Positions 30,861 through 48,595 of a stretch of DNA of 64,000 nt are shown piece by piece. The DNA lies in contig JAKIWG010000001.1 of the NCBI GenBank assembly GCA_022750155.1, positions 145,138 to 209,137 of the forward strand, written 5' to 3'. Each line of letters opens with the position of its first letter. Positions within the stretch are counted from its first letter, which is position 1. The stretch is from Thermoplasmata archaeon. GTDB lineage: Archaea > Thermoplasmatota > Thermoplasmata > Lutacidiplasmatales > UBA184. A program made the translations under genes and the position numbers. Under the pieces are notes generated by a model. The model was not told the DNA's origin. It did not search any database and worked only from the letters and a program-made list of their open reading frames with translations.

Positions 30861-31005
30861 TCCCGGACGGTCGGCCGCCGCGGATCCGACCCACCCGAAC
30901 GACGGAGGTGCATCCGGAACGGTCGAGGCTACGCCGTAAGGACCCATGCGCGGCCTCGCGCCGTATCCTGTCGGAAAGGGTCTATCCCCGGCACCACGGT
31001 GGTCC

Positions 31006-31013
31006 CTTATATG
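31006..31013 (+). promoter_or_regulatory. TATA-like box of the PAS-array kinase operon
   Basis: The cttatatg element lies about 60 bases before the GTG at 31069. Transcription from about 31035 would give a leader of some 34 bases carrying GGGAGGAG at 31056-31063, so this operon seems to use a led, Shine-Dalgarno-type start, unlike many neighbours. Confidence 0.5.
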
Positions 31014-31068
31014 GCGCGACCCGAATGACCGTGACGCCTTGGTCGGGACGTCACAGGGAGGAGAGGAA

Positions 31069-34000
31069 GTGACGGCGACCGTCCGCTCGGCGCCGTTCGT
31101 TGACTACCGCGCGTTCCTCCAGAACGTCTTGGAATCCTCGACCGAATACTCCATCATCGCCGCGGATTCCAACGGGAAGATCCTCCTTTGGAACGAAGGC
31201 GCCCACCGGATCTACGGCTACACTTCCGAGGAGGTCGTCGGGAAGGACAGCCGGATCCTGCTCCCCCCCGCGGACATCGCGGCCGGCAAGTACGACACGG
31301 TGCTGAAGACCGCGCTCGCCCAGGGCAAGTGGGAGGGGGTGATGACCCGCCGCCGGAAGAGCGGGGAGCATTTCCCGGCGCGCCTCGTCCTCACGGTGCT
31401 GCGCGAGCAGGCCGGGCAACCGCTCGGTTTCCTCATCGTCTCGAAGGACATCACCGACGAGCAGCACCTCCACCAGAAGCTCATCGAGTCGGAGGAGTAC
31501 AACCGGGGGCTCATCGAGTCGAACATCGACGCGATCATGACCACCGACACCCTGGGGATCATCACCGACGTCAACCGACGGGTCGAGGAGCTCACCGGGC
31601 GACCCCGCGACCAGCTCATCGGGACGCCCCTCAAGGAGTACTTCGCCGACCCCGCACGGGCCGAGGAGGGGATTCGGCGCGTGCTCGCCGAGGACCGCGT
31701 CACGAACTACGAGCTCACCCTTCGGTCGGTCCGTGGCACCGAGACGGTCGTCGCCTTCAACGCCACGACGTTCCGGGGCCGCGATCAGAAGCTGCGCGGC
31801 GTGTTCGCCGCCGCGCGCGACGTCACCGAACAGAAGCGGCTCGAAACGCAGCTCCGCGAGTCGCAGAACTACACCCGTGGCCTGATCGAGGCGTCGCTGG
31901 ACGCGATCATCACCGTCGACAAGGACGGGGTGATCACCGACCTGAACCGCCAGATGGAGACGGCCACGGGATACACCCGCGAGGAGCTGATCGGCAGCCG
32001 GTTCGCGGACTACTTCACCGACCCGGAGCGGGCGGTCGCCGGCGTCCGGGAGACCCTCGAGAAGGGATTCGCCGAGAACTACGATCTCACGCTGAAGACG
32101 CGGCAGGGGCGCGAGCAGATCGTCTCGTTCAACGCCTCCATCTTCCGCGACATCGAGGGGGGGGTGAAAGGGATCTTCGCCTCGGCGCGGGACATCACCG
32201 GGCAGAAGCTGCTCGACCAACAGCTCCAGGAGTCCCAGATCTACAACCGCAGCCTGATCGAGGCGTCCCCGGACGCGATCGTCGTCGTCAACACCGACCT
32301 CGTCATCACCGATGTGAACGAGGAGATGGTCAAGATCACCGGGTACTCCCGGGAGGAGCTGATCAGCAGCACCTTCAAGACCTACTTCACCGAGCCCGAC
32401 CGGGCCGTCGCCGGGGTCCGCCAGACCCTCGAGCAGACGTACGTCACCAACTACGAGCTGGTCCTCAAACCTCGCGACGGCCCGCAGCGGATCATCTCGT
32501 TGAACGCCTCGGTGTTCGGCGACCCCGAGGGCCACGTGAAGGGGATCTTCGCCTCGGCGCGGGACATCACCGAGCAGCGGGCCCTCGAAGAGCAGCTCCG
32601 CGAGTCGCAGAACTACAATCGGGGCCTGATCGAGGCGTCGGTCGACGCGATGGTCATCGTCGACCCGAAACTGCTCATCACGGACGTCAACGAGCAGATG
32701 GCGAAGCTGACGGGGCACACCCGCAAGCAGCTCATCGGGTCGGCGTTCATCCAGTACTTCACGGAGCCGGACACGGCCGCCGCCGGGGCGCGGAACACCT
32801 TCGAGCGGGGCTTCGTCACGAACTACGACCTCGTGCTCCGCTCCAAGGGCGGCCAGGAGCTGCCCGTCTCGCTCAACGCCTCGGTGTTCAAGGACATCGA
32901 GGGCCGGGTGCGGGGTATCTTCGCTTCCGCACGCGACGTCACCGAGCAGAAGAAGCTCAACAGCCAGTTGCGGGAGTCCCAGAACTACACCCGGGGCCTG
33001 ATCGAGTCCTCCGTCGATGCGCTCCTCACGACCGACGTCCTCGGGGTGATCACCGACGTGAACCGCCAGATGGAGGTGATCACGGGGGTCCCCCGTGACC
33101 GCCTCATCGGCTCGCCGCTCAAGACGTACTTCCGCGACACGGCCGCGGCCGAGGCGGCCGTGCGCCGGGTGCTCGAGCAGAACCAGCTGACGAACTACGA
33201 GCTCGTCCTGACCTCCCAGACCGGGGTGGAGACCCCGGTCTCGTTCAACGCCACCACGTTCCGAGACGCGAACGGTGCGCTCATCGGCATCTTCGCGGCC
33301 GCGCGAGACGTCACCGAGCAGAAGAAGCTCGAAGGGGAGATCCGCGAGTCGCAGAACTACAACCGCAGCCTCATCGAGGCGTCGGCCGACGCGCTCGTCA
33401 CGGTCGACCCGACCCTCACCATCACCGACGTCAACGAACAGATGGTCCGGGTCACCGGCTACCGGCGTCTCGAGCTGATCGGTTCGCAGTTCCCCGACTA
33501 CTTCACCGACGCGGGCCGGGCGGCCGCGGGGGTCCGCAAGACCCTCGACGCGGGGGTGGTCACCAACTACGAGCTCGCGCTTCGCAGCCGCACCGGTCGC
33601 ATCGCCCAGGTCTCGTTCAACGCGTCGGTGTTCCGCGATACCTCCGGTCGGGTCGGGGGGATCTTCGCCTCGGCGCGGGACATCACCGAGCAGAAGAAGC
33701 TCCAGGAGCAGCTCCGGGAGTCGCAGCTGTACAACCGCAGCCTGATCGAGGCGTCCCCGGACGCGCTCGTCATGGTCGACCCGGAGCTCGTCATCACGGA
33801 CGTCAACGAGCAGATGGTCCGGCTGACGGGGTCGCCCCGCGACGCCCTCATCGGGAGCTCGTTCCGGACGTACTTCCTCGACGGGGAGCGGGCCGCCGAC
33901 GGGGTCCGAAAGACCCTGCAGGAGGGGTCGGTCTCGAACTACGAGCTCGTCCTGAAGTCCCGCAGCGGGCGGCACATCCTGGTGTCGCTCAACGCGGCGG

Positions 34001-35619
34001 TGTTCAAGGATATCGAGGGCCGGACCGAGGGGATCTTCGCCTCCGCCCGGGACATCACCGACCAGAAGAAGATCGAGGAGAAGCTGGTCGAGTCGCAGAA
34101 CTACAACCGCGGGCTCATCGAGGCGTCCCCCGACGCCCTCGTCACCGTCGACCCGGACCTCGTCATCACCGACCTCAACGAGCAGATGGTCCGACTCACG
34201 GGGTTCAGCCGCAAGCGGCTGATCGGGCAGCGGTTCCCCGAACTGTTCACCGACCCGTCGCGGGCCGACGAGGGGGTCCGCCGGGCGCTTCGCGAGAACC
34301 TCGTCAACAACTACGAGCTGATCCTGCGCAAGCGAAACGGGCAGAAGATCCCCGTCTCGACCAACGCCGGCACGTTCCGCGACATGGCGGGCAATGTCCA
34401 GGGCGTGCTCGCCGCCGCGCGGGACATCACCGAGCAGAAGAAGCTCGAGGCCCAGCTGAGGGAGTCGCAGAACTACAACCGGGGGCTCGTCGAATCGAAC
34501 ATCGACGCCCTCATGACCACGGACCTACTCGGGGTCATCACCGACGTCAACAAGCAGATGGAGGTCCTCACGGGCATCTCGCGCGAACAGCTCGTGGGGA
34601 CGCCGTTCAAGCACTACTTCACCGACCCGGCGAAGGCGGACCAAGCGATCAAGTCCGTCCTGAGCGAGAACCGGGTGACCGACATCGAGCTCGCGATCCG
34701 CACGCCGTCCGGCTCGATCACCGACATCTCCTACAACGCGACGACGTTCAAGGACACCGAGTCGCGCCTCGCCGGTGTCTTCGCCGCCGCACGGGACGTG
34801 ACCGAGCAGAAGCGGCTCCGCGACCAGCTCGAGCAGCGCAACAGCGAGCTCGAGATCCAGAACCTGCGCGTCCAGGAGGCGAACCGGCTCAAGAGCGAGT
34901 TCCTCGCCAGCATGTCCCACGAGCTTCGGACGCCGCTCAACAGTATCATCGGCTTCTCCGAGTTCCTCCTGAACGGCGACGGGGTCGCGCTGAAAGCCGA
35001 GCAGCGCGAATACCTGGGCGATATCCTCAACAGCGGCAACCACCTCCTGCAGCTCATCAACGACGTCCTCGACCTCGCCAAGGTCGAGTCCGGGAAGATG
35101 GAGCTCGCCCCGGAGCCGTTCTCGCCCCGCCAAGCGGTCGAGGAGGTCTGCTCCGTCGTCAAGCGAATGGTCAGCGAGAAGAACCTGGAGCTGCACACCC
35201 ACGTCGCGCGGGACATGGCGATGGTCTCCCTCGACCCATTGAGGTTCAAGCAGATCCTCTACAACCTACTGTCCAACGCCGTGAAGTTCACCGACGAGGG
35301 GGGCCGGGTCGAGGTCTCCGTCGCCCCCCACGGAGACAAGGCGTTCGAGCTCAAGGTGCGCGATACCGGTATCGGCATCGCGGCCACCGACATCCCGAGG
35401 CTGTTCCGGGAGTTCGAGCAGCTCGAGGCCGGCCCGTCGCGCCGCTACCAGGGTTCGGGGCTCGGCCTCTCCCTGACGAAGAAGCTCGTCGAGCTCCACG
35501 GGGGTCGGATCGAGGTCGATAGCGTCGTCGGCAAGGGGACGACGTTCCGTGTTCTCCTCCCCTACCTCGCAGGAGCTTCTTCCCAGGAGGTCGGCGTTGC
35601 CCCGACGGTGCCGGCGTGA
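31069..35619 (+). CDS. giant multi-PAS sensor histidine kinase
   Basis: 1516 residues from the GTG after GGGAGGAGAGGAA (an upstream in-frame ATG at 30946 precedes the predicted transcript start). No membrane helix or signal was seen, so it is a cytosolic sensor. Order: one divergent PAS (residues about 5-135), then nine PAS+PAC units of exactly 124 residues, a coiled-coil linker (EQRNSELEIQNLRVQEANRL), a HisKA domain with phospho-acceptor His1284 in SMSHELRTPLNS, and a HATPase with N box NAVKFTDEGG, G1 DTGIGI and G2 GSGLGLSLTKKL. There is no receiver domain; two stand-alone receivers follow directly. It autophosphorylates and passes phosphate on; PAS units may bind a flavin, haem or small ligand, not identifiable here. 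Confidence 0.9.
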   Translation: MTATVRSAPFVDYRAFLQNVLESSTEYSIIAADSNGKILLWNEGAHRIYGYTSEEVVGKDSRILLPPADIAAGKYDTVLKTALAQGKWEGVMTRRRKSGEHFPARLVLTVLREQAGQPLGFLIVSKDITDEQHLHQKLIESEEYNRGLIESNIDAIMTTDTLGIITDVNRRVEELTGRPRDQLIGTPLKEYFADPARAEEGIRRVLAEDRVTNYELTLRSVRGTETVVAFNATTFRGRDQKLRGVFAAARDVTEQKRLETQLRESQNYTRGLIEASLDAIITVDKDGVITDLNRQMETATGYTREELIGSRFADYFTDPERAVAGVRETLEKGFAENYDLTLKTRQGREQIVSFNASIFRDIEGGVKGIFASARDITGQKLLDQQLQESQIYNRSLIEASPDAIVVVNTDLVITDVNEEMVKITGYSREELISSTFKTYFTEPDRAVAGVRQTLEQTYVTNYELVLKPRDGPQRIISLNASVFGDPEGHVKGIFASARDITEQRALEEQLRESQNYNRGLIEASVDAMVIVDPKLLITDVNEQMAKLTGHTRKQLIGSAFIQYFTEPDTAAAGARNTFERGFVTNYDLVLRSKGGQELPVSLNASVFKDIEGRVRGIFASARDVTEQKKLNSQLRESQNYTRGLIESSVDALLTTDVLGVITDVNRQMEVITGVPRDRLIGSPLKTYFRDTAAAEAAVRRVLEQNQLTNYELVLTSQTGVETPVSFNATTFRDANGALIGIFAAARDVTEQKKLEGEIRESQNYNRSLIEASADALVTVDPTLTITDVNEQMVRVTGYRRLELIGSQFPDYFTDAGRAAAGVRKTLDAGVVTNYELALRSRTGRIAQVSFNASVFRDTSGRVGGIFASARDITEQKKLQEQLRESQLYNRSLIEASPDALVMVDPELVITDVNEQMVRLTGSPRDALIGSSFRTYFLDGERAADGVRKTLQEGSVSNYELVLKSRSGRHILVSLNAAVFKDIEGRTEGIFASARDITDQKKIEEKLVESQNYNRGLIEASPDALVTVDPDLVITDLNEQMVRLTGFSRKRLIGQRFPELFTDPSRADEGVRRALRENLVNNYELILRKRNGQKIPVSTNAGTFRDMAGNVQGVLAAARDITEQKKLEAQLRESQNYNRGLVESNIDALMTTDLLGVITDVNKQMEVLTGISREQLVGTPFKHYFTDPAKADQAIKSVLSENRVTDIELAIRTPSGSITDISYNATTFKDTESRLAGVFAAARDVTEQKRLRDQLEQRNSELEIQNLRVQEANRLKSEFLASMSHELRTPLNSIIGFSEFLLNGDGVALKAEQREYLGDILNSGNHLLQLINDVLDLAKVESGKMELAPEPFSPRQAVEEVCSVVKRMVSEKNLELHTHVARDMAMVSLDPLRFKQILYNLLSNAVKFTDEGGRVEVSVAPHGDKAFELKVRDTGIGIAATDIPRLFREFEQLEAGPSRRYQGSGLGLSLTKKLVELHGGRIEVDSVVGKGTTFRVLLPYLAGASSQEVGVAPTVPA
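31483..34830 (+). repeat. nine tandem 372-bp PAS-encoding repeats
   Basis: Units begin at 31483, 31855, 32227, 32599, 32971, 33343, 33715, 34087 and 34459, each exactly 372 bases with no insertion or deletion. Each begins with a form of RESQNYNRG and ends with ARD[IV]T[EDG]Q...L. Units 1, 5 and 9 share TTDxLG, NATTF and FAAARDVTEQK; units 2-4 and 6-8 mostly share EASxDA, NASVF and FASARDIT. This gives an A-BBB-A-BBB-A order with a super-period of 1488 bases. Confidence 0.9.
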
Positions 35620-35999
35620 TGGCTCAGATACTCATCGTCGAGGACAACCCGACGAACCTCAAGCTCGCGGCCGTCATGCTGGCGGCGGCGGGGTACGAGA
35701 CGCGCGGGGCGATCGACGCGGAGGAGGCGGCGCGGGCGATCCACGAGCGCGTTCCGGACCTGATCCTGATGGACCTCGGACTCCCCGGAAAGGACGGCTA
35801 TGAGTTCACCCGGGAGCTCCGGGGGAAGGCGGAGACCGAGGGGGTTCCGATCCTCGCGGTGACGTCGTTCGCCATGAAGGGCGACCGGACCAAGGCGATG
35901 GACGCGGGGTGCAGCGCCTACCTGACCAAGCCGATCAACCGCCGGGAGCTTCTCGACCAGGTCGGGAAACTGCTGACGGTCGCCCCGGGGAGTGCATAG
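35619..35999 (+). CDS. stand-alone response regulator receiver (CheY/DivK-like)
   Basis: 126 residues and only a receiver domain: acidic pair Glu8-Asp9 (LIVEDN), phospho-acceptor Asp52 (LILMDLGLPGKDG), switch Thr82 (AVTSFAMKGD) and Lys104 (YLTKPI). The ATG overlaps the kinase stop by one base (TGATG); a GTG one codon earlier is also possible. There is no output domain, so it acts as a phosphate shuttle, a protein-binding switch or a phosphate sink. The Lys-containing AMKGD loop resembles receivers that follow hybrid kinases (DivK-type). It is co-transcribed with the kinase. Confidence 0.92.
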   Translation: MAQILIVEDNPTNLKLAAVMLAAAGYETRGAIDAEEAARAIHERVPDLILMDLGLPGKDGYEFTRELRGKAETEGVPILAVTSFAMKGDRTKAMDAGCSAYLTKPINRRELLDQVGKLLTVAPGSA

Positions 36000-36518
36000 A
36001 TGACGGAGTATTCGAGGGTGAGTGGCGGGGCCGTGGCGCCGAAGTCCGAACCGTTGCCGAGCATCCAGACGGCCCTGGGGAAACGGATCCTCGTGGTCGA
36101 GGATTCGCCCTCGGCGCGCAAGCTGATGCAGCAGCTGCTCCTTCGTCTCGGCGTCTCGCTCCCGGACCTGCGGCTGGCGGCGACCGTCCCGGAGGCGCTG
36201 CAGCTGTTCACGAGCTGGGAGCCGCAGATCGCCATCGTCGACCTGCAGCTCCGCGGCTCCCCGGCCCCGGGCGCTCCCGGGGCGGGGACCGACGCGCCGT
36301 CGAACGGCGACGAGCTCGTCCTCCAGCTGCTCCAGCGGAACCCCGGCCTCAAGGTGATCATCTGCTCGGCGTCCGAATCGGACGGAGTGGAGGTGAAGGC
36401 CTTGATCCAGAAGGGCCGCGTCCTGTCGATGATCAAGCCCGTGGTCGCCTCCAAGCTCGCCGAGGTCCTGTCGCGCGCGACCCAACCGTCCTCTGCGTCC
36501 GCGGGTCGCGGGCGGTAG
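36000..36518 (+). CDS. second stand-alone receiver protein
   Basis: 172 residues, starting at the base after the preceding stop. A 27-residue leader precedes the receiver fold: RILVVEDSPSARKLMQQLL, acceptor Asp81 in AIVDLQLRG, Ser123 in IICSASESDG and Lys146 in MIKPVVASKL. A Pro/Gly/Ala-rich insertion of about 15 residues follows the phospho-Asp loop, an uncommon place for a long insertion because it borders the active site. No output domain. As third gene of the operon it is a second possible target of the PAS-array kinase, perhaps competing with the first. Confidence 0.85.
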   Translation: MTEYSRVSGGAVAPKSEPLPSIQTALGKRILVVEDSPSARKLMQQLLLRLGVSLPDLRLAATVPEALQLFTSWEPQIAIVDLQLRGSPAPGAPGAGTDAPSNGDELVLQLLQRNPGLKVIICSASESDGVEVKALIQKGRVLSMIKPVVASKLAEVLSRATQPSSASAGRGR

Positions 36519-36575
36519 GGGTCTCCCCGACCCCGACGGTCCGCGCGTCGGGGTTCGGGTCCCCTCCGGACCCGC

Positions 36576-37883
36576 TCAGGCGTAGGAGATCACGAACGAG
36601 CCGTTCGAGCTGACCAGCAACCGATGGGATGAGGTGGGGAAGAGGCCGCCGCTGAACTGCCAACCGGTGAACGCGTGGCCCGGACAGCCGGGGAGGGTGA
36701 AGGAGTACGGGGTCGAGGAGGGGCGCGTCGTGATCGTGCTCCCGTTCCCGTAGCCGGTGCCGTTGAAGGTCACCTTGCCGCAGCTCGACGGCTGGAGATG
36801 GACCTGGACGGTGGCCCACGGCGTGTAGCTCGCGTTGACCGCGACGCTGGCCAGGAGCGCGCCGCAGACGTCGTGAATGTGGACGAGGTAGGTGCCGGGG
36901 TAGAGATAGCGGTTGTAATTGAGCAGCGGTACGGAGACGGTTACGTTCGACGCCCCGTTCGGGGCGGTCTGCCCGTGGTCCTGGACGACCTTGCCGGTCG
37001 CCGGGGACTCGAGTTCGAGGAAGAAGTACCTCGCGGAGACGATTCCGCCCAGGCGTGCCGAGTAGTTCGCGCCGATCCACTGGGACGGGCCGCTGCTCGA
37101 GAGGACCGTCACGGAGGGGGCCGGATAGAATTCGCTCGGGATCGAGGACGGCCACTGGGAGGTGTTGGTGGGGACGCTCCACGGCCCGGTCACCGTGGAG
37201 CCGTTGGGCTGATTCAGGGCCCAATGCCAACGGACCGCCAGGGTGACCGCGCCGTACGGTGCGTTCCCTTCCACCGCGATCTTCTCCGTCGAGAGGACTG
37301 CCGAGCGATTCGTCGCGAAGCGGACCCCCGAGGACTCTACGACCGACCGGTTCGACACGTAGGCGTTCGTCCAGCCGGCGCCTGTCACGGAGAAGTTGGA
37401 TGGGGAGAAGTACACCTGCGCGGTTCCCCCAGCCGCCTGGGGGAAGTTCGCGAAGGCGCTCGGGACGTCGATCACCACCCCCCGCGCGGCCGCCGGATAG
37501 CTCATCGCCCCGATCTCGAATTGCACCGACAGGGCGCCGCCGGCGGCCAACGGCTGCGTGGGAGGGGCGATCGGCACCAGGACGGCCGACGGAGTGGGCG
37601 AGCCGTACGGGTAACAGGCCGGTTGATGGGCCCCCGTCGACGCGTTGCTGGGGGGTACGACCACCGGCGGGAGCGAGGGGAGCGAGGTGGGTAGGACCCC
37701 GGCCACCGCGGCGAAGGAGACGACCGCCACCCCGAGCACGGCCCAGTACATCGCCCACGGCCACCAGGGGCGTCCGAGGGGCGTGGAGGTCGATCGTCGT
37801 CGGATCGACCATCGCGAGCTCGTCCCCGGCAGGGGGCTCCCGGAGCGCTTCGGGGGCGGCTCGGAGGTCAGGGGGGTGTGCAT
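36576..37883 (-). CDS. secreted surface protein, paralogous family (member B)
   Basis: 435 residues from MHTPLTSEPPPK; longer in-frame extensions upstream look non-coding. A membrane or signal helix lies at about residues 44-68 (AMYWAVLGVAVVSFAAVAGVL), then an extracellular beta-rich region rich in Ser/Thr and sequons (NAS, NFS, NRS, NGS, NYS, NVT). Family core: IAVEGNAPYGAV...VRWHWALNQ...GPWS and FYPAPSVTV. It then has the YPGTYLVHIHDVCGALL module shared with member C, and a C-terminal module CGKVTFNGTGYGNGS...GCPGHAFTGWQFSGG shared with member D. No C-terminal anchor, so it is held by the N-terminal helix or released. Function unknown. Confidence 0.72.
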   Translation of the reverse strand: MHTPLTSEPPPKRSGSPLPGTSSRWSIRRRSTSTPLGRPWWPWAMYWAVLGVAVVSFAAVAGVLPTSLPSLPPVVVPPSNASTGAHQPACYPYGSPTPSAVLVPIAPPTQPLAAGGALSVQFEIGAMSYPAAARGVVIDVPSAFANFPQAAGGTAQVYFSPSNFSVTGAGWTNAYVSNRSVVESSGVRFATNRSAVLSTEKIAVEGNAPYGAVTLAVRWHWALNQPNGSTVTGPWSVPTNTSQWPSSIPSEFYPAPSVTVLSSSGPSQWIGANYSARLGGIVSARYFFLELESPATGKVVQDHGQTAPNGASNVTVSVPLLNYNRYLYPGTYLVHIHDVCGALLASVAVNASYTPWATVQVHLQPSSCGKVTFNGTGYGNGSTITTRPSSTPYSFTLPGCPGHAFTGWQFSGGLFPTSSHRLLVSSNGSFVISYA

Positions 37884-38193
37884 GAGGCACCATGTCCGGG
37901 CGTCGTCTCCCCGCCGATGGCGCGGGGGGGGCTTCGCACGCAAAAAATGGGGTCTCGGGGATAAGGCGGGTTCGTTACCGCGGGGGAAGCACGTACGGTC
38001 GGGCACGGTGGCCCGGACGCCCCTGCCGCGAAGCAGGGAACGGAGATCGGTGGCCGGTCGGCCCGTCGCGGGCCGTCGGGGCCACCCGTCCCTCGGGGTC
38101 GATCCGTTCGGGGCCGCCGATCGGGCCTCGACGGACCGCGGGGCCGCGTGGGATTCGTGCCAGGAGAAGCCGGTGCGGAATGGCTCCGGGCCA
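37884..38193. other. intergenic region between family members C and B
   Basis: 310 bases. A minus-strand ccttatcc TATA-like element at about 37960-37967 would give member B a leader of roughly 55 bases. An A6 tract on the plus strand (cgcaaaaaatgg near 37942) reads as a T tract after member C and may serve as its terminator or as part of the promoter. No gene is visible. Confidence 0.4.
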
Positions 38194-39171
38194 TCATGGA
38201 ACCGATACGGGGATGCTGTGGACGATCGCCTGGCAGTGGTCGTGGATGTGGACCAGGTAGTGCCCCGACGGGAGGGCACCCCCGCCGGCGTACGCCATCC
38301 GCGCGGTCGCGTTGAAGGTGGTCGCGCCGGCCGCGGTCGATTCCCAGCGGGAGGTGATCTCGGTTCCGTTGGTCGGGAACTCCACGACGACCCGGAAGGA
38401 GGTGTTGTCGACGGCCCCCCCCAGTTCCGCGGTAAAGTTCGCCCCGGCCGCGACGTTCGTACCGCTCGTCCTCAGGAGCGGAACGTACGGGGCGGGCAGG
38501 AGGATGCTCGGAAGCTCCGGGGGAGAGGCGTTCGCACGGGGGACCGACCAGGAACCGTTCGTCCGGTTCGCCCCCGCGGAGGTCGTCTCCGACCAGTGCC
38601 ACCGGAACTCAACGTTGAGCTGGCCGTAGGAGGCCGACGCCATCACCGCGATCCTCTGCGTCGAGATCCAGCTGGGCTTGGAGGTCGAGAACGTGACGGC
38701 CGAGGCCAAGGTCTTGACGTGGGTGACCGAGACCGAGCTGGACCACCCGACCCCGTTCAGGGTGAGGGTCTGGGATGGGGTGAAGAGGGTGAGACTTCCG
38801 GTGGGGGTCGTCGGGAAGACCGCCGTCACGCTGGGCACGTAGACGGTGACGGGGAGGACCCCGTTGGAGGCGTTGGCCGCCGCCACGGAGTAGGTGACCG
38901 CCACCGACCCCCCCGACCGAATGTTCGAGGACGGATCGCTTCCGGGGATCTGCAGCGCCGACGGGTTGTGCCCGGACCCTCCGCACATGCCCGTTCCCGC
39001 GGGGAGGGGGGCCGGGGGCGACCCGGGAATCGGGGTCAGGGGCCCGGCGCCCGATGACAGGGCGCCGATCGCGAGGATCAGGAGCACCGTTTCGAAGGCC
39101 CGGGACGCCGAGCGAAGCGCCGGCGCCGGGAGCGGTCGAGGTCGAACGTTCCGCCGGATCTCTCGAGGCAT
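38194..39171 (-). CDS. secreted surface protein, paralogous family (member C)
   Basis: 325 residues with an Arg-rich N terminus and a signal-like helix (FETVLLILAIGALSSGAGPL). The mature part repeats the family plan: SGGSVAVTYSVAA, VTVYVPSVTAVFP, LTLNGVGWSSS, RIAVMASASYGQLNVEFRWHW, GSWSVP, LLPAPYVPL, and ends with LPSGHYLVHIHDHCQAIVHS, the His/Asp/Cys module also in member B. It lacks the Cys-rich C-terminal module and any C-terminal anchor, so it may be secreted. Several sequons (NAS, NRT, NFT, NTS, NGT) suggest N-glycosylation. GGAG lies shortly before the ATG and a TATA-like tttcatac further upstream. Confidence 0.72.
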   Translation of the reverse strand: MPREIRRNVRPRPLPAPALRSASRAFETVLLILAIGALSSGAGPLTPIPGSPPAPLPAGTGMCGGSGHNPSALQIPGSDPSSNIRSGGSVAVTYSVAAANASNGVLPVTVYVPSVTAVFPTTPTGSLTLFTPSQTLTLNGVGWSSSVSVTHVKTLASAVTFSTSKPSWISTQRIAVMASASYGQLNVEFRWHWSETTSAGANRTNGSWSVPRANASPPELPSILLPAPYVPLLRTSGTNVAAGANFTAELGGAVDNTSFRVVVEFPTNGTEITSRWESTAAGATTFNATARMAYAGGGALPSGHYLVHIHDHCQAIVHSIPVSVP

Positions 39172-39499: not shown

Positions 39500-41251
39500 G
39501 TGTCGATCTTGCCGCCCGCATCGGGGAGGGCGTCGGTTCCCGAACCCGCCCCGCCGCGACGAACCGCCGGGGGGAGGGCAGTTCGGGGGGTCCGCCCCCG
39601 CCGAGAAGCATCCGTCGCCCCCCGACGTCCCAGGGGCCCAACCCTCGCCGTCGTCTCGCTTCTCCTGATCACGGGCGTCTTCCTGACGCTCGACCTGCTT
39701 CCATCGATAGGACTCTCCGTTCCTTCGGTGGCCGGCCGCCTTCCGCTGCTCGCCCCGTCGCCGGGGGCGCCGGGCGCGGTCGGCCCCGGGGTGGCGAGGT
39801 CGCTCGCCGTCGGCCCACGGATCGCCGATACCCCGGGGAGCTTCTGGTCGCTCGACGCCCAAACGAGTTGCGCGAGCTGCATCTCTTCGAACGCCTCGGT
39901 CACCGGATTCCTCTCGGCCACCCCGTTCACGTGGGTCCGGTACGGACAGATGACGGACGCGTGCAACATCTCCGTCGGTCTGCAGTACAGCGCGGACGGA
40001 GTCTCGTCCCACGGGTGCGGCTTCGACGTGTACGCGCTCAAGGCGTGGTGCGCGTCGCTCACCCCGCACTGTCACGCCATCCTCAGCCTCCCGGGGGAGA
40101 ACAACAATTCGGCAGAGGACTCCGCGATCGCGAAGTGGATCGTCCAGACCGTCGGATTCCAACCCGCGTACTGGTCGATCGGCAACGAACCCACGGGATG
40201 GACCCATTACGGGATCCCGTGGGCCCATTGGCGATCGACCGACCGCGTCGCCCCCTCCTCGCTGGCATACGCGCTCGACGTGAGGGCGGCGATCGCCGCC
40301 GTTTCGCTCGTCGACCCCGGGGCACGGTTCGTCGGGATCGAAGCCGCGTGCTCGTGCAACACCGGCTGGTTCCAGGATGTCGCGCGGGTCGACGGCGGGT
40401 CCATCTCGGCGATCGCGTTCCACAATTACCCGTCCTCCGGGTCCACGCAGGAGAGCGCGCAGCAGTTCTTCGCCCCTCTCGCAAGTCCCAGCAACGTCAC
40501 CAGCAGCGTCGCCCGAGTGCGCGCCGCGATCTCGGGTCTTTGCCCGAGGTGCTCGGCGATGCCCCTGCTGGTCAACGAGTACAACGCCGGCCCGGGGTGG
40601 GCGCCGTCGAATCTCGGCGGGAGCTACGCCAACGCCGTCTTCCTTGCCGCCTCGGTCGTCCAGGCGCTGCAGGGAAACGTCAGCCAGCTGACGATCTTCA
40701 ACCTGCAGGGGGGGTCCTCCGGTCACCTCGGGTTCTCTCTGATGGACTCGCGTGGAACCGTGGGCCCACCCGGTCTCCTGTTCTCGCGGGTCCTCTCCCA
40801 CGTGGCGATCGGGTCGGTCTACGGCACTCGCCTGTCGACCGCCTCCCCCGGAGTCTGGTCGGTCGAAACCCGGAACTCGACGACCGCAAGTGTCCTCGTC
40901 GTCAACACGAACCTCACCCACGCCCTCACGCTCTCCCTTCCGATAGGGTTCCTCCCGTCGCCCGCCGGAACGGCCTACTGGTGGGGGCCGTCGTCGGCAA
41001 ATCCCCGGAGCAGCTCCGGAACGATCGCCACGAGTTGGTCGATCCCGACGCAGGGACTCCTGCTCATCGACGTTCCGGTCCTGCGGATCGGGCCGCTATC
41101 CCCCCCGCCGGCACCCTCCGCACCGATCGTCGGGGTCGGCACGACCGGGGCAGGTTCGCCCACCGTGGTGCTCCCGATGATCCTCGCAGGCGGGACGCTC
41201 CTCGGGCCCGGGTGGGTCGATGCGGTGACCCGGGAACCGGTTTCGAGGTAG
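39500..41251 (+). CDS. membrane-anchored glycoside hydrolase-like (clan GH-A) surface protein
   Basis: 583 residues from a GTG with GGAGG upstream. A basic 47-residue tail leads into a membrane helix (LAVVSLLLITGVFLTLDLL), then an extracellular TIM-barrel region with TWVRYGQMTDAC, YWSIGNEPTGW (acid/base Glu230) and PLLVNEYNAGPG (nucleophile Glu360). Two Glu after strands 4 and 7, the first in an NEP motif, are the mark of clan GH-A retaining glycosidases such as arabinofuranosidases, xylosidases or GH79-like enzymes. Several Cys pairs (SCASCISS, EAACSCN, LCPRCSA) suggest disulfides outside the cell. A C-terminal beta domain and a weak hydrophobic end follow. Glycan substrate unknown. Confidence 0.75.
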   Translation: MSILPPASGRASVPEPAPPRRTAGGRAVRGVRPRREASVAPRRPRGPTLAVVSLLLITGVFLTLDLLPSIGLSVPSVAGRLPLLAPSPGAPGAVGPGVARSLAVGPRIADTPGSFWSLDAQTSCASCISSNASVTGFLSATPFTWVRYGQMTDACNISVGLQYSADGVSSHGCGFDVYALKAWCASLTPHCHAILSLPGENNNSAEDSAIAKWIVQTVGFQPAYWSIGNEPTGWTHYGIPWAHWRSTDRVAPSSLAYALDVRAAIAAVSLVDPGARFVGIEAACSCNTGWFQDVARVDGGSISAIAFHNYPSSGSTQESAQQFFAPLASPSNVTSSVARVRAAISGLCPRCSAMPLLVNEYNAGPGWAPSNLGGSYANAVFLAASVVQALQGNVSQLTIFNLQGGSSGHLGFSLMDSRGTVGPPGLLFSRVLSHVAIGSVYGTRLSTASPGVWSVETRNSTTASVLVVNTNLTHALTLSLPIGFLPSPAGTAYWWGPSSANPRSSSGTIATSWSIPTQGLLLIDVPVLRIGPLSPPPAPSAPIVGVGTTGAGSPTVVLPMILAGGTLLGPGWVDAVTREPVSR

Positions 41252-41376
41252 TCCGCCTCGGTCGCTGCGTGGCTCGTCAGGGAGGGAGCGATGATGGGGC
41301 GCACACGGCCGATCCCTCAGGGGCTTCGAGCGGGGGGCGGACGGCTCGACCGTTGCGGTTACGGTCTTCTGGCAAG

Positions 41377-41383
41377 CTATATC
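41377..41383 (+). promoter_or_regulatory. TATA-like box of the Fic-fold gene
   Basis: The ctatatc element is centred 28 bases before the ATG at 41408, which makes the message leaderless and decides that start over the upstream ATG at 41291. Confidence 0.6.
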
Positions 41384-41407: not shown

Positions 41408-42619
41408 ATGGCCGTCGAAACGGCCAGGTTCGCCCACTGCATCGCGCGCCGGCCCGTAGAGTACCGGGCGAAATCGCCGTTCCGTCCGTCGATCTCGGCC
41501 CCCCTCGACTTCGCGGTCCGGGTCGGGGAGCTCTACACGCTCGACCACGAGCTCGACCGGGCGGTCCTCCGTGACGGGGACTACGCGTATCTCGTGGGCG
41601 AGGAGCTCGACGCCGAGCCGGGGCCGATGCGGGTGCTCGACGCGGGGGCCGTAGAGACGACGGGAGCCCCCCATGCCGCGGGGTCGACCGAACGCTCCAC
41701 GCGGCGCAATCAGCTCCGCCGCCAGTCCGCCCTCAACCACGCTCGACTGGAGGCCGAGTCGGCGGGGTTCCGACCCCCCTGGACCGTCGACCTCCTCCAG
41801 GACGTCCACGCGACGCTCCAGCAAGGGCTCGGGAACGGGATCCCCTCCGGAGAGCTGCGGCGCAGTTCGTTCTCCGCGACGGACCCGGAGGGCGAACCGG
41901 TGTTCCACGCCTGTCCTCCGGACCGTATCCGGGGGGACCTGCAGGCCGTGCTGGACTGGGTCGACCGGTACGGCGCCCTCTACCACCCGCTGATCCCGGC
42001 CACGGTGCTGTTCCAGGCGCTCTTCAGCATCCGCCCGTTCCCGAGCGGGAGCGTGAGCGTGGGGCGCTCCGTCGCTCTGCTCTACCTACGGCACCACGGG
42101 CTACCCAACGTGGCGATGGCTCCGGTGGCGACCGTCAGCCTCGCCTCCCCCGAACTCGCGATGCGGCTCCTCCTCTGGACCGAGGCCACGGGTTCCTACA
42201 CGGAGCTCCTCGACCACCACCTCGACTCCGTCCTGCAAGCCTACGCGATCGCGAACCGGCGGTGGCTGGGCGAGTCGGTGCGCTCCGAGCAGCTCGAGGA
42301 GGTCCAGCTGCGCCTCGTAGCGCGCGCGCGCCGGGCGCCCGGGTGGTTCTCCGCGCGCGACGCCATGCAATGGGTCGGCGCGCGCAGCGACCAGACCATC
42401 CTCCGACACCTCAACGAACTCGTGGGCCGGGGGATCCTCGAGTCGCTCGGACGGACCCGCGGCAAGCGGTTCCGCGTCGTCGCGCGGGCCACCGCCCCGC
42501 CGGTCCCCACGTCTCGCTACCCCTCGGATCGGATCGATTCGGACGGGACGGGGACCACGGAGTCGCAGCCCACGGCGCGCCACCGCCGTTCGACTCCGAG
42601 CCTGGGGTCCCCTCCGTGA
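41408..42619 (+). CDS. Fic-fold protein with degenerate active site and C-terminal winged helix
   Basis: 403 residues. The Fic domain is recognisable from about residue 105: NQLRRQSALNHARLEAE, GELRRSSFSATDPEGEPVFHACPP (the flap), YHPLIPATVLFQALFSIRPF and then PSGSVSVGRSVALLYL. Active Fic enzymes carry HPFxDGNGRxxR at the last site; here it reads RPFPSGSVSVGR (209-220), so the catalytic His is Arg and the Mg/phosphate-binding D-G-N-G is lost. AMP transfer is therefore unlikely. Residues about 330-390 (WFSARDAMQWVGARSDQTILRHLNELVGRGIL) form a winged HTH. The protein may work as a regulator or adaptor. The first 100 residues are unassigned. Confidence 0.8.
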   Translation: MAVETARFAHCIARRPVEYRAKSPFRPSISAPLDFAVRVGELYTLDHELDRAVLRDGDYAYLVGEELDAEPGPMRVLDAGAVETTGAPHAAGSTERSTRRNQLRRQSALNHARLEAESAGFRPPWTVDLLQDVHATLQQGLGNGIPSGELRRSSFSATDPEGEPVFHACPPDRIRGDLQAVLDWVDRYGALYHPLIPATVLFQALFSIRPFPSGSVSVGRSVALLYLRHHGLPNVAMAPVATVSLASPELAMRLLLWTEATGSYTELLDHHLDSVLQAYAIANRRWLGESVRSEQLEEVQLRLVARARRAPGWFSARDAMQWVGARSDQTILRHLNELVGRGILESLGRTRGKRFRVVARATAPPVPTSRYPSDRIDSDGTGTTESQPTARHRRSTPSLGSPP

Positions 42620-42652: not shown

Positions 42653-42877
42653 TCAGAGAGGCCGCTTCGGTCGGGCGTCCACGCGGATCGCACCGGAGTG
42701 GGGATCGAGGTACCAGCGGACCTCGTCTCCCGCACAGAGCCCGAGGCTCGCGGCGATGACCTGGGGGATGGTGACGCGCAGCGAGTCGGATCCCCGCGAG
42801 GCTCGGACCGCTCGGCTGACGAACGGTGTTTCCTGTGCTACGGCGCTCACGGGCGTGGACAGCCCCGACGGAGCCAT
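42653..42877 (-). CDS. AbrB/SpoVT-like DNA-binding protein
   Basis: 74 residues from an internal ATG; the frame extends further upstream without homology. The swapped-hairpin motif is SLRVTIPQVIAASLGLCAGDEVRWYL, followed by a strand and a basic end (IRVDARPKRPL). This is a lone AbrB-type regulator with no PIN or other toxin gene next to it. It ends 33 bases from the convergent Fic-fold gene; because Fic toxins usually pair with small antitoxins, a functional link was considered, but the opposite orientation argues against an operon. Confidence 0.7.
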   Translation of the reverse strand: MAPSGLSTPVSAVAQETPFVSRAVRASRGSDSLRVTIPQVIAASLGLCAGDEVRWYLDPHSGAIRVDARPKRPL

Positions 42878-43086: not shown

Positions 43087-44754
43087 ATGTGGTCGGTGAT
43101 GATGACGAGACCCCGGTCCCCTGTTCCCACGGTTTCGGAGGCTCCAGCACCCGGGCCGGGGCCGGTGGGGGCCGTGGGCGACCGGATCCGCCTGCCCGCC
43201 GGCGTCGGCCTGGCGACGGAACCGATACTCACTCCGGAGGCCCTCGAATTCCTCGCGACGATGGCCCGGCGATTCCGCCCGCGGTGCGCCCGCCTGCTGT
43301 GGGAACGAAAGGTCCTCGCCGATCTGCGGGAGCCCTCGGGCAGCGGCCCCACGGCCGAAGGCCGCGCGATCCGGGAGGCGGACTGGACGGTCCCGCCGGC
43401 GCCCCCGGGGCTCGAAACCCGCCAGGTGGAGATCGTCGGCGAGCCTGCCGCGAGGGCGATCGTCCGGGGTCTGAACTCGAAGGCGGACGTCTTCGTGGCG
43501 GACTTTGACGACCTTCACGCCCCGATGTGGGGGGTCACTCTTCACGGCCAGTGGAACCTGGCCCGCGCGGTGCGGCGGTCGCTGGAGTACCTCGCGCACC
43601 ACGGGGAGCGGTTCCGGGTCGTCAGCCGCCCCGCGACGATCATGGTGCGCCCGCGAGCGTGGCACGTCGCCGAACCCGGCCTGACGGTCGACGATCGACC
43701 CGTGCCGGCGGGGCTGTTTGACGCGGGCCTGTACCTCTTCCACAACGCTCGGGAACTCGTGCGGTGCGGCACCGGGCCGTACTTCTACCTCTCGAAGCTC
43801 GAGCACTACCCGGAAGCCGCGCTCTGGGACGAGGTGTTCACCTTCGCCGAGGGAAGCCTCGGGCTGGCGAGGGGCACGGTCCGGGCCACCGCGGTGATCG
43901 AGACGGTCACGGCGGCGTCGGAGATGGATGAGATCCTGTTCGCCCTGCGGCCCCACAGCGCCGGACTCGCCTTCCACCAGCTCGGGCTCACGTTCAGCCA
44001 GCTGAAGCGGTCCGCCCGCTCACTCGGATCTCCGGAGCCGGGGGACCCGGTGTTCTCGGGGGGCGCCGAGTTCCTCGGCGACACCGCGCGCAGGGTCGTC
44101 CGGACCAGCCATCGCCGTGGGGCCCCGGCGTTGAACGCGTCCCCCGTGCATCTCCTCGACCTGGAGATCGGCGGTCCCAGCCGCCCGGAGATCGCCTCCG
44201 AGCTCGCCGAGAAAGTGCGGGACGTGCGCACGGGGTTCGACGGGTGCTGGGTGGGGAACCCGGCAGCCGTCCCCGTGGTGCGGAAGTTCTTCGAGGCGCG
44301 CTCGAGCGCGGTGGCGTTGGCGATCAGCTCCGGAGTCTCCGGCGACCCGGTGGCGGGCGATTACGAACGGGTCGGGAGCCTCGTGGCTCCGGGGTTCACC
44401 CCTCGGACCGCCGTTCGTGCGAGCCTTCGATTCCTCGAGGCTCGGTACCGGGGAGCCGGCTCGGTCGTCGTGGATCATGTGCTCCAGTCGGAGTCGAACG
44501 TCGAGGTCGCGCGGACCCGGCTGTGGCTGTGGACCCATCCGGGATCGATCAGCGGTTCGACCGACCCCGACCGGGCCGCCGAGCTGAGGGTGATCCTCGG
44601 CGAGGAGCGCGCGGAGCTCCGCCAGGAGGCGGCGACGGACCCATCGAGGCTCCTCGGCGTCGACAGCGCTGCCCGCGCCGTCGACCGCCTCACGCTCGGA
44701 GCAGAGATCGTCGAGTACCTGACCCGGGACACCGAGTCGGACGCCACCTCCTGA
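43087..44754 (+). CDS. malate synthase-like protein lacking key catalytic residues
   Basis: 555 residues with the malate synthase A fold throughout: VFVADFDDLHAPMWG, GQWNLARAV, RPRAWHVAEPG (Arg190), GPYFYLSKLEHYPEA, GTVRATAVIETVTAASEMDEIL (Mg ligand Glu272), then HSAGLAFHQLGLTFSQLK. In true enzymes the last segment is H-AGLN-GRWDY-FS with the second Mg ligand Asp; here GRWDY is HQLGL. The catalytic-base motif MEDAATAE is replaced by LQSESNVE (466-473). The PMTVPFM/GGMAAFIP region is also changed. So glyoxylate plus acetyl-CoA condensation is doubtful. It may act on another acyl-CoA or be a pseudoenzyme. No isocitrate lyase is in the window. Confidence 0.75.
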   Translation: MWSVMMTRPRSPVPTVSEAPAPGPGPVGAVGDRIRLPAGVGLATEPILTPEALEFLATMARRFRPRCARLLWERKVLADLREPSGSGPTAEGRAIREADWTVPPAPPGLETRQVEIVGEPAARAIVRGLNSKADVFVADFDDLHAPMWGVTLHGQWNLARAVRRSLEYLAHHGERFRVVSRPATIMVRPRAWHVAEPGLTVDDRPVPAGLFDAGLYLFHNARELVRCGTGPYFYLSKLEHYPEAALWDEVFTFAEGSLGLARGTVRATAVIETVTAASEMDEILFALRPHSAGLAFHQLGLTFSQLKRSARSLGSPEPGDPVFSGGAEFLGDTARRVVRTSHRRGAPALNASPVHLLDLEIGGPSRPEIASELAEKVRDVRTGFDGCWVGNPAAVPVVRKFFEARSSAVALAISSGVSGDPVAGDYERVGSLVAPGFTPRTAVRASLRFLEARYRGAGSVVVDHVLQSESNVEVARTRLWLWTHPGSISGSTDPDRAAELRVILGEERAELRQEAATDPSRLLGVDSAARAVDRLTLGAEIVEYLTRDTESDATS

Positions 44755-44887: not shown

Positions 44888-46459
44888 ATGAGGTGCAGGT
44901 CGCAGGACATCCAGGATTCTTCGGGGGCGTTCCGCCCCCCGAGGGGATCCCGGCGGACGAGGTCGAGGGTCTGGCTGGCGCTGCTGGTCGCCGCCGGTCT
45001 CACGCTCCCCCTCGCCCCGTGGGCCTCCGGGGGACCGAGCCCGTCGGCGAGCGGCGTCCAGCTCTCGGTCACGGCGTCCGGCCCGGGAGCGATCGCTCTC
45101 AGTTGGTCGGTCTCGGCGACGCTCCTCCTGGCTTTCGACCACTACGAGGTGTTCCGGTCGACCGTCGGCTCGACCGGTCCGTGGGCGCCGCTGCAAACCC
45201 TGCGCAACGCTACGGACATGTCGTTCTATTGGGAGGGGCTGACCCCCGGAACCTCCTACTGGTGGGAGGTCGGGCTGTTCGACAGCCTGGGCGGGAACAC
45301 CAGCTCGAACATCGTCGAGCACACCCAACCCGGCGTGGCCGCGCTGACCGGTTCCCGAAGCGGCTCGACCTCCGCCAACCTCTCGTGGACGAACTCGGCC
45401 TCGTACGGTCCCGGGCTCGCCTTCTCCTCGTACACGATCGAGATGGCGGTCGACAACGGCACCTACTCGGCCAGCGCGCCGCTCCGCAGCGAGTCGGTGC
45501 GATCGGCCGTCGCGACGTCACTTCGGGGTGGGGCCTGGTACGACGTCTACGTCGTCACCGCCGAGGGGTGTTCGGGGGCGGCCAACTGCCCCTCGTTTCC
45601 GCAATCTTCGCTGACCGACTCCAACGTCGTGGCGTTCGCCATGCCGTGGCCGCTCACCGCGCAGGTCACCTCCGCCTCCTCCACCCTGACCCCCGGGGGA
45701 GTCGGCACCTTCGCGTGCGCGGGCTCGGGGGGGGTGGCCCCTCTCAAGATCACCTGGAAGTTCGGGGACGGGACGGGGGCCGCAGGCACGCCGGTCACTC
45801 ACGCGTTCCAAGCCGCCGGCACCTATACGGTCGCCTGCACGGTGAGGGATGCCATCGGCTCCCGGGCGCTCGCTTCCACGAACGTCTCCGTCAGCGCCGC
45901 CGGAACCGGGGGAAACGCGTCTGGGAACGGTAGCGGCACCGGCTCAGGCTCGGGCAATGGCTCCTCGGGCAGCAACGGAACGGGCGCGAACGGGACCCTC
46001 CCCGGGGGCAGGGGTCGTGGTTCCGGTGGATCGGGCGGTCTCCCCGGTTCGTCGCCCACGTCCTCCGCCTCCCCGATCATGCCCGCCCTTGAGGGGTTCC
46101 TCCTCGTGGCGTTCGTCGCGGCGGTCATCGGGCTTTCGATCATCGTGGCCCGCCGAGGCGCAGGAGTCCGAGCGGCCCTCGGGCCGAGGGCGTCTCGCCG
46201 TTTCGGATCTCTGCCTCCTTCGGCCCCAGGGACCACGACTCCGCCGCCGGGGGCCATCGGCAAGGTCACCGTCGCGGCGCCGTCCGGTCCACCTTCGGGC
46301 GTACCAGGGGATTCCGCGGTGCGGCGTCCGTCCCGGGGCGTTCCGGCCCACCGCCCTCCGGGGACGGCGGCCGCCCCCACGACGGCTCCATCCCGGACCC
46401 CCCGGGACCTCGACGAGCTACTGGACGAGCTCGAGGGGACGGGCTCCCGTTCCTCCTAG
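44888..46459 (+). CDS. surface protein with fibronectin type III and PKD domains
   Basis: 523 residues. Arg-rich start and signal helix (VWLALLVAAGLTLPLAPWASGG), then two Fn3-like domains (about residues 55-145 with FDHYEVFRST and LTPGTSYWWEVGLFD, and 150-250 with ANLSWTNS and WYDVYVVTAEG), a PKD domain (about 262-338: ITWKFGDGTGAAGTPVTHAFQAAGTYTV), a Gly/Ser/Asn-rich linker with many sequons, a membrane helix near 398-420 (FLLVAFVAAVIGLSIIVA) and a cytoplasmic Pro-rich tail. This is the plan of an archaeal adhesin or envelope protein anchored at its C terminus. A cctatgtaa TATA-like element lies about 41 bases before the ATG. Confidence 0.82.
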   Translation: MRCRSQDIQDSSGAFRPPRGSRRTRSRVWLALLVAAGLTLPLAPWASGGPSPSASGVQLSVTASGPGAIALSWSVSATLLLAFDHYEVFRSTVGSTGPWAPLQTLRNATDMSFYWEGLTPGTSYWWEVGLFDSLGGNTSSNIVEHTQPGVAALTGSRSGSTSANLSWTNSASYGPGLAFSSYTIEMAVDNGTYSASAPLRSESVRSAVATSLRGGAWYDVYVVTAEGCSGAANCPSFPQSSLTDSNVVAFAMPWPLTAQVTSASSTLTPGGVGTFACAGSGGVAPLKITWKFGDGTGAAGTPVTHAFQAAGTYTVACTVRDAIGSRALASTNVSVSAAGTGGNASGNGSGTGSGSGNGSSGSNGTGANGTLPGGRGRGSGGSGGLPGSSPTSSASPIMPALEGFLLVAFVAAVIGLSIIVARRGAGVRAALGPRASRRFGSLPPSAPGTTTPPPGAIGKVTVAAPSGPPSGVPGDSAVRRPSRGVPAHRPPGTAAAPTTAPSRTPRDLDELLDELEGTGSRSS

Positions 46460-47380: not shown

Positions 47381-48595
47381 CTAGGCGAACCTCGCCGTCA
47401 GGTTGCCCCAAGCGCTGATCGTCGCGTTCGAGGTCATGGACCCGGAACGTCCGACCCAGACTCCGGCGCTCCGCGTCCACCCCTGGAACGCCTTGCCGGA
47501 ACATGCCGAGACCCCGATCGGGATCCCGTTGACCGAGGGCCGGACGCGGAGCACCGAGCCGCTCGCGTAGGCGGTCCCGTTGAATCGGACCGGTCCGCAT
47601 CGCGAAGGCGATGCCGTGAGGGTGACGTTCGCCCAGGGTGCGTAGACGGCGTGCAGGCTGATGCTGTAGAGGAGCGACAGGCAGTAGTCCCGGACGTGGT
47701 CGAGGAGCGTGGCGGGCGCGAGGGGGGCACGGTACGGGAGGATCCAGACCGAGACCGCGTCGGGGGTGCTGTTCCCCGGACCGGTCGTCGTCTCGTCGTT
47801 GCGGAAGGCCCGCCCGGTGGAGGCGTACTCCAGCACGCTGTGGAAGATCGTCCCGGAGGTCGCGCCGGTGAGGTACGCCGTGAACTGGCTCCCGATCGCG
47901 GGCGAATTGTTCGAGTTCGAGACCAGCCGGACGTAGGGCGCCGGGTAGAAGGAGGACGGGTGGGGACCCGTGGTCGATACGTGGCTCCATGGGCTGGTGA
48001 CCGTCGTGCCGTTCCCTCCGAACGTCACGCTCCAGTCCCACCGGAAGACGATGGTGGCGGTCTGGTACGACGCGTTGGCCATGATCGCGAGCAGCTCGCT
48101 CGTCATCCGCGCTGGAGCGGCCGCGAACCGGACCGCACCAGAGATCGATGAAGTGTGGGTCGCGATTGAGCCGCTCGACCAAGCGGTCCCGTTCAGCCGG
48201 ACCGTCCGGGGTGCGAGGAACGAATCGAACGAGGAGCCGTTCGCGAGAGGGAATTTCGCGGTGAAGCTGGGCACGGTCAGCAGCAGGTTCGCGGTCCTGT
48301 GGGTGACGTTGTGGATCGCGAATTCATAGCTCACCGAGAGCGCGTCGCCTCGCGACAAGGCGAACGATGGGCTGGGGAGGAGGACGTCCCTCGCCGACCC
48401 GATATCGGTGGCGTTGAACGGACAGGTCGAGGGGTACTGCCGGTCCGGTCCGATCACGGCCAGCCCCGGCGCCGCACTCCCCGCGGCCAGTGGCAGGGTC
48501 GGGAACACCAGTAGCGCCAGCACCGCGGCGAGACCGGGTCGGAATCCGTGGACTGGCAGTCGGCCCCGGAGAACCCCGGCCGGGTGACGTCGCAT
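47381..48595 (-). CDS. secreted surface protein, paralogous family (member D)
   Basis: 404 residues with a signal peptide (GLAAVLALLVFPTLPLAAGSAAPG) and no C-terminal anchor. Family plan: GDALSVSYEFAIHN, LLTVPSFTAKFP, RLNGTAWSSGS, LLAIMANASYQTATIVFRWDW, SPWSHV and FYPAPYVRL. It then carries LLDHVRDYCLSLLYS, related to the VHIHDxC module of members B and C, and PWANVTLTASPSRCGPVRFNG...ACSGKAFQGWTRSAG, the Cys-rich C-terminal module of member B. Sequons are frequent (NAT, NVT, NGS, NGT). The two Cys at the C-terminal module probably form a disulfide outside the cell. Function unknown. Confidence 0.73.
   Translation of the reverse strand: MRRHPAGVLRGRLPVHGFRPGLAAVLALLVFPTLPLAAGSAAPGLAVIGPDRQYPSTCPFNATDIGSARDVLLPSPSFALSRGDALSVSYEFAIHNVTHRTANLLLTVPSFTAKFPLANGSSFDSFLAPRTVRLNGTAWSSGSIATHTSSISGAVRFAAAPARMTSELLAIMANASYQTATIVFRWDWSVTFGGNGTTVTSPWSHVSTTGPHPSSFYPAPYVRLVSNSNNSPAIGSQFTAYLTGATSGTIFHSVLEYASTGRAFRNDETTTGPGNSTPDAVSVWILPYRAPLAPATLLDHVRDYCLSLLYSISLHAVYAPWANVTLTASPSRCGPVRFNGTAYASGSVLRVRPSVNGIPIGVSACSGKAFQGWTRSAGVWVGRSGSMTSNATISAWGNLTARFA

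Follow-up and report, generated by a model that had tools for sequence, protein, structure and literature searches.

A Fic protein with an erased active site and an ancestral winged helix, a probable DNA-binding regulator in a small group of soil archaea

What becomes of a Fic protein once the residues needed for its chemistry are gone? This question is raised by a gene in a 64,000-nucleotide stretch of DNA from a Thermoplasmata archaeon (the window; Table 1), in which a sequence-only reading had seen a Fic-fold protein with an erased catalytic motif. The assignment to the Fic/Doc fold family was borne out, since the product of 403 residues scores 25.7 bits against PF02661 over the whole model (positions 2-93 of 93; Pfam cut-off 24 bits), and its orthologues reach 30-35 bits. 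A second Fic match was not found in the window genome (2.13 Mb, 93.7% complete). Most or all of the genomes used here are probably metagenome assemblies.

Table 1. Features of the pseudo-Fic locus, in window coordinates.
Feature	Position	Strand	Basis or context
Secreted protein, NEP...NEY pattern	39500..41251	+	adjoins pseudo-Fic gene upstream in 6/6 loci
BRE/TATA promoter element, GGTTAC-N3-CTTCT-N3-AAG-N-TATATC	41357..41383	+	conserved in five genus genomes
Pseudo-Fic/wHTH protein, 403 aa	41408..42619	+	Pfam Fic above cut-off; orthologues in five other genomes
Linker, residues 61-95	41588..41692	+	site of inhibitory helix N-[IV]-H-x-S-x-x-x-E-G in intact relatives
Erased Fic motif RPFPSGSVSVGR, residues 209-220	42032..42067	+	alignment with orthologues and intact relatives
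C-terminal winged helix (wHTH), residues 298-357	42299..42478	+	pLDDT 85-94; 71% mean identity
Predicted recognition helix, residues 328-340	42389..42427	+	clade-specific R332 to L, 333 to R, 334 to H
AbrB/MazE-fold small gene, candidate partner	42653..42877	-	PF04014 24.8 bits, cut-off 24.7
Malate synthase	43087..44754	+	downstream; matched in 3/6 loci including the window
Secreted FN3/PKD-domain protein	44888..46459	+	downstream in 6/6 loci

The motif of Fic AMP-transferases, HPFx(D/E)GNGRxxR with its catalytic His, is absent from the window protein, which reads RPFPSGSVSVGR instead. It has lost His209, the acidic residue, the second Gly and the first Arg, and it retains Pro, Phe, the first Gly and the final Arg. 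The alignment thus agrees with the earlier claim that the catalytic His and the Mg/phosphate-binding residues are gone and the final Arg is kept. Orthologues were found in five other genomes by searches across relatives, class, genus, family and order (44-60% identity), so that the erased motif is carried by the window genome, four genomes of the same genus and one of a sister genus; one of the orthologous loci comes from the MAG AcS4-93, a Lutacidiplasmatales genome with 68% GC (PMC9287336). The motif varies from IRPFPSGSVSVGR in the window to IRPFPRGSLAVGR, IRPFPVGNVTVGR, IRPFPAGNVAVGR and IRPFPMGNVTTAR in the other genus genomes and VRPFPSGNHAVGW in the sister-genus copy. All six copies have Arg in place of His209 and lack G216 and R217; P210, F211 and G214 are kept in all six and R220 in five, leaving an invariant R-P-F-P-x-G pattern with a Pro fixed after RPF. 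All of the approximately 42 other aligned relatives (27 SoFic-like and 15 others) retain HPF...GN...R.

Conservation of the altered motif in orthologues, proposed as a check of the sequence-only reading, was therefore found in six of six genomes, and a search for close orthologues with an intact motif, the finding that would have spoken against it, came out negative. Because all six genomes share the erasure, it is not local, and sequencing error or local mutation could be ruled out. The six copies form one clade in the maximum-likelihood tree (support 100/100, stem 0.87), placing a single origin of the erasure within the sampled sequences. In the sister-genus copy, what looks like a break in the reading frame falls on a 10-N gap in the assembly. 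No viral relatives of the erased clade were found; the viral matches to the intact profile came from intact-motif searches and were used for alignment depth only.

The loss described by the sequence-only reading for the motif is correct as far as it goes, but it extends far past the motif to the inhibitory helix and the Tyr-Tyr pair. The 27 intact relatives share 56 columns with a conservation of at least 90%. Of these, 29 persist in five or six of the erased copies and comprise fold residues (among them N110, W125, G148, P170, W184, P210, F211, G214, R220) and positions of the winged helix. Nineteen of the 56 are lost in the erased clade, mostly in or around the active site, including the N-H-S of the inhibitory helix, the HEFE preceding the motif, H209, G216, R217, F223, C238 and Y251/Y252. 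The inhibitory helix, (S/T)xxxE(G/N), is deleted in the five genus copies, where about 10 residues are missing, and degenerate in the sixth, so that the window protein lacks the N-terminal helix that marks class II Fic proteins. The remaining linker is rich in Gly, Pro and Ala, fast evolving and predicted to be disordered (pLDDT <50 at residues 60-92). For ATP, intact SoFic relies on E73, H198, R206 and Y241 (PMC12249575); judged by their offset from the His, the first three would correspond to the inhibitory Glu, H209 and R217, and Y241 presumably to one of Y251/Y252. Joint loss of enzyme and restraint would be expected in a non-catalytic protein, which has no activity to restrain. Loss of catalysis with retention of the fold is strongly supported.

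The fold itself was examined by AlphaFold2 with an alignment of 39 sequences, which gave a pLDDT of about 85-92 in the Fic core, about 85-94 in the winged helix and 69.9 on average overall. The best Foldseek matches in the PDB were Fic proteins (4rgl, SoFic 3zec/3eqx, 7cb8, CbFic2 8cil, 7xux). The structure prediction asked for by the sequence-only reading hence supports the Fic core, although this support is not independent and is partly circular, because Fic homologues were fed to the model. The C-terminal winged helix (about residues 298-357) was found where it had been proposed, and its wing is basic in the window protein (TRGKR). Erased and intact families align collinearly in hhalign over 1-358 and 1-365 (probability 100, E 1.5e-61), showing in the window protein the Fic core plus C-terminal winged helix of SoFic-type proteins in full-length register; the PADLOC SoFic profile matches the window protein with E 5.5e-15 and intact archaeal relatives with 1e-36 to 1e-44. 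The winged helix is also present in the intact class II/SoFic-type relatives examined, and the ancestor was therefore already a Fic-wHTH protein. The fusion to a winged helix seen in the sequence-only reading thus holds, but the winged helix did not join a Fic domain that was already dead. By these alignments, the window protein belongs to a pseudoenzyme branch of the class II SoFic-type Fic proteins with an ancestral wHTH fusion.

The promoter offers a further view of the gene. In the five genus genomes, the consensus GGTTAC-N3-CTTCT-N3-AAG-N-TATAWC is found with at most one mismatch per genome, and since its TATA lies at -30..-25 from the pseudo-Fic ATG, the transcript should be leaderless, in support of the start assigned earlier from the sequence. 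The 25-base core, which ends in TATA, has no second occurrence in the window genome at up to three mismatches. An in-frame upstream coding extension to 41291 is disfavoured because the variable bases of the element show no codon or third-position bias, and its conserved bases fit a BRE/TATA element. Intact relatives across the class carry a 24-bp palindrome, ATTRT-N14-AYAAT, which in most cases precedes the start by about 65-85 bp and lies just upstream of BRE/TATA (e.g. L027, L007, L020, L005, L036, L039). It is perfect in 10 of 25 intact promoters versus 0-3 of 25 at each of the other spacings between 2 and 30, a contrast that was chosen as a fair control because the motif had been defined from these same 25 promoters; inverted repeats are enriched overall in the promoters of intact relatives (z 5.2). 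This palindrome is probably the autoregulatory operator of a whole family of intact archaeal SoFic-type genes, which fits the published self-repression by CccR (PMC9755527). It is absent from all six erased promoters, near which no other palindromic operator was found either (392 of 1000 shuffles equal or better; z 0.8). A palindromic operator at the own promoter, as in CccR, is thus seen in the intact relatives and not in the erased clade. Elsewhere in the window genome, the ancestral operator was matched at one site with two mismatches, a smaller count than that of the reversed control. In the erased clade, the predicted recognition helix differs at the three positions listed in Table 1. The one pointer to autoregulation in the erased clade is the conserved, genome-unique element, which could simply be the promoter.

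All six loci share the order secreted protein, pseudo-Fic gene, convergent AbrB-like gene and secreted FN3/PKD protein; in three of them, malate synthase lies between the last two. Close orthologues of the AbrB-like gene, whose presumed start codon was chosen by alignment, occur only in the six pseudo-Fic genomes, and none of the intact Fic genes tested has it as a neighbour. Among the NCBIfam models, the AbrB-like protein comes closest to TIGR02609 doc_partner, though weakly (18.7 bits vs a cut-off of 55.9). As the Pfam match is a bare pass and this likeness is weak, a toxin-antitoxin origin is a lead and not a result. The surroundings of the locus (PAS kinase, two receivers, secreted proteins, FN3/PKD) were detected in a genome of a sister genus (G273), and neither the pseudo-Fic nor the AbrB-like gene was; the two therefore seem to come or go together, and the AbrB-like gene may be linked to pseudo-Fic function. 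The adjoining upstream secreted protein has no match in Pfam or NCBIfam and no significant one in the PDB, and its structure model is unusable (pLDDT 33); it resembles a glycosidase by eye only and possibly represents an undescribed glycosidase family. The NEP...NEY family is multi-copy in many genomes of the archaeal family. Three related secreted proteins whose homologues cross-match flank the locus (36576-38279, 38194-39171, 47381-48595 (-)); the two scanned gave no Pfam match. A very large PAS-repeat histidine kinase (30940-35616, plus strand; about 10 PAS stretches) precedes two receiver-domain proteins (35523-35996, 36000-36518), with >85% identity in two relatives, and a tRNA-Gly (CCC) gene lies next to the receiver gene, close to where the conserved locus begins (36497-36573, plus strand).

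Given that the active site and the inhibitory helix are gone, that the stem branch is long and that the gene is present in a patchy manner (6 of 103 family genomes), it might be a drifting pseudogene that no longer serves a purpose. We regard this as very unlikely. The reading frames of the five genus copies are open at 54-60% identity, R209-P-F-P212 is invariant, promoter and synteny are conserved, and the regions of the protein differ in constraint: among these five copies the winged helix has the lowest pn (0.16; mean identity 71%), followed by residues 1-60 (0.20) and the Fic core (0.26) at a ps of about 0.43-0.53, whereas the former inhibitory linker (pn 0.51 vs ps 0.53) and, likewise, the C-terminal tail show pn close to ps. 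Synonymous sites are near saturation, and pn/ps is to be read here as a regional contrast and not as a calibrated dN/dS; with linker and tail as an internal control, the constraint on wHTH and Fic core argues against a decaying gene. In EcSofic, the C-terminal domain is also packed against the Fic domain, whose activity it controls (PMC12249575), so the constraint on the winged helix could be structural. A constrained protein might still be an enzyme in which Arg209 replaces the His in another transfer reaction. Non-canonical Fic motifs can perform phosphocholination or phosphorylation (PMC8401265), and the invariant change from His to Arg suggests a role for the Arg. Such altered chemistry nevertheless appears improbable to us: besides the His, the acidic residue, G216, R217 and Y251/Y252 are lost, positions 213, 216, 217, 251 and 252 have no single conserved substitute across the erased copies, active enzymes have a restraining helix that is missing here, and Doc-type variants still depend on the His (PMC4454073).

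Two further readings concern partners. The dead Fic domain could be a scaffold that binds another protein, perhaps the AbrB-like one, as a de-toxified toxin-antitoxin pair. The co-inheritance of the two genes in all six loci, the G273 locus in which neither was detected and the weak doc_partner likeness point in this direction. BepC offers a precedent for non-catalytic action (PMC7842960), and a small antitoxin is encoded next to EcSofic (PMC12249575). On the other side, the AbrB-like gene is convergent and not in an operon, and its family match lies far below the cut-off. We hold this to be unlikely, but it is compatible with the main explanation and does not exclude a regulator role. Since the toxicity of EcSofic needs dimerisation (PMC12249575), a dead copy could also poison an active one in mixed dimers and serve as a dominant-negative antidote. 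This is extremely unlikely: no other Fic match was found in the window genome, and no genome has both an erased and an intact SoFic-type copy (6 vs 6 of 103 family genomes).

We therefore favour, as probable, a non-catalytic DNA-binding regulator derived from a dead SoFic-type Fic-wHTH protein, with a new site. The ancestor would have been a class II SoFic-type protein that could AMPylate targets, had its inhibitory helix as a brake and probably bound and repressed its own promoter. In the erased branch, the catalytic His, the Mg/phosphate-binding residues, the Tyr-Tyr pair and the inhibitory helix would have disappeared together, with the fold and the DNA-binding domain retained; because the latter two were kept, the present protein is most likely a dimeric, non-catalytic DNA-binding regulator. 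The changed recognition helix may redirect it to a new site, possibly the conserved element of its own leaderless promoter, and the AbrB-like neighbour may act together with it. DNA binding, dimerisation and autoregulation of the pseudo-Fic protein are properties that we infer. The earlier proposal of a repurposed regulator stands as the best reading, with the winged helix most constrained and the former inhibitory helix evolving almost freely. More tentatively, and with some doubt, a chromosomal toxin-type Fic-wHTH autorepressor may have been disarmed by the joint loss of catalysis and inhibitory helix, moved to a new DNA site by the changes in its recognition helix and fixed with an AbrB-like partner as the dedicated regulatory pair of a surface/secreted-protein locus, turning an AMPylase into a transcription factor.

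The protein shares its Fic-wHTH architecture and a collinear alignment with SoFic/EcSofic (PDB 3eqx, 3zcn; PMC3667792, PMC12249575), but it lacks their catalytic motif, inhibitory helix and Tyr-Tyr pair; as the catalytic residues are absent, the toxic AMPylation during phage infection of the SoFic anti-phage system would not be expected. CccR of Yersinia pseudotuberculosis is a class II Fic protein that represses its own promoter via a palindrome (PMC9755527) and, like the window clade, combines the Fic domain with a C-terminal HTH; in contrast to this clade, it is an active AMPylase with His and inhibitory helix. CbFic2 of Coxiella burnetii (PDB 8cil), a class II Fic protein with a DeoR-type wHTH and functional DNA binding (PMC10628234), is an active (de)AMPylase with the motif HPFDDGNGRIGR, whereas the window motif is erased. 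Non-catalytic or motif-poor Fic domains have been described for BepC (HxFxKGNGRxxR), Bep8 (PFxxGNE) and AvrB (PMC7842960, PMC8401265, PMC2686095). As in the window protein, the Fic fold is retained there for binding without, or apparently without, AMPylation, but these are host-injected effectors that lack a wHTH, and the window protein is chromosomal, archaeal and equipped with a DNA-binding domain. AMPylation-independent Fic domains in the cited literature are injected effectors; a conserved dead Fic domain in a DNA-binding protein of free-living archaea would show that a toxin-type enzyme can become a plain regulator. The long-suggested idea that the Fic-HTH fusion is a regulator in itself is thereby made testable, and the palindrome of the intact archaeal relatives provides a concrete candidate operator. 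As far as sequence comparison can tell, an enzyme-dead Fic protein has been maintained by selection in these few soil archaea, most likely as a gene regulator.
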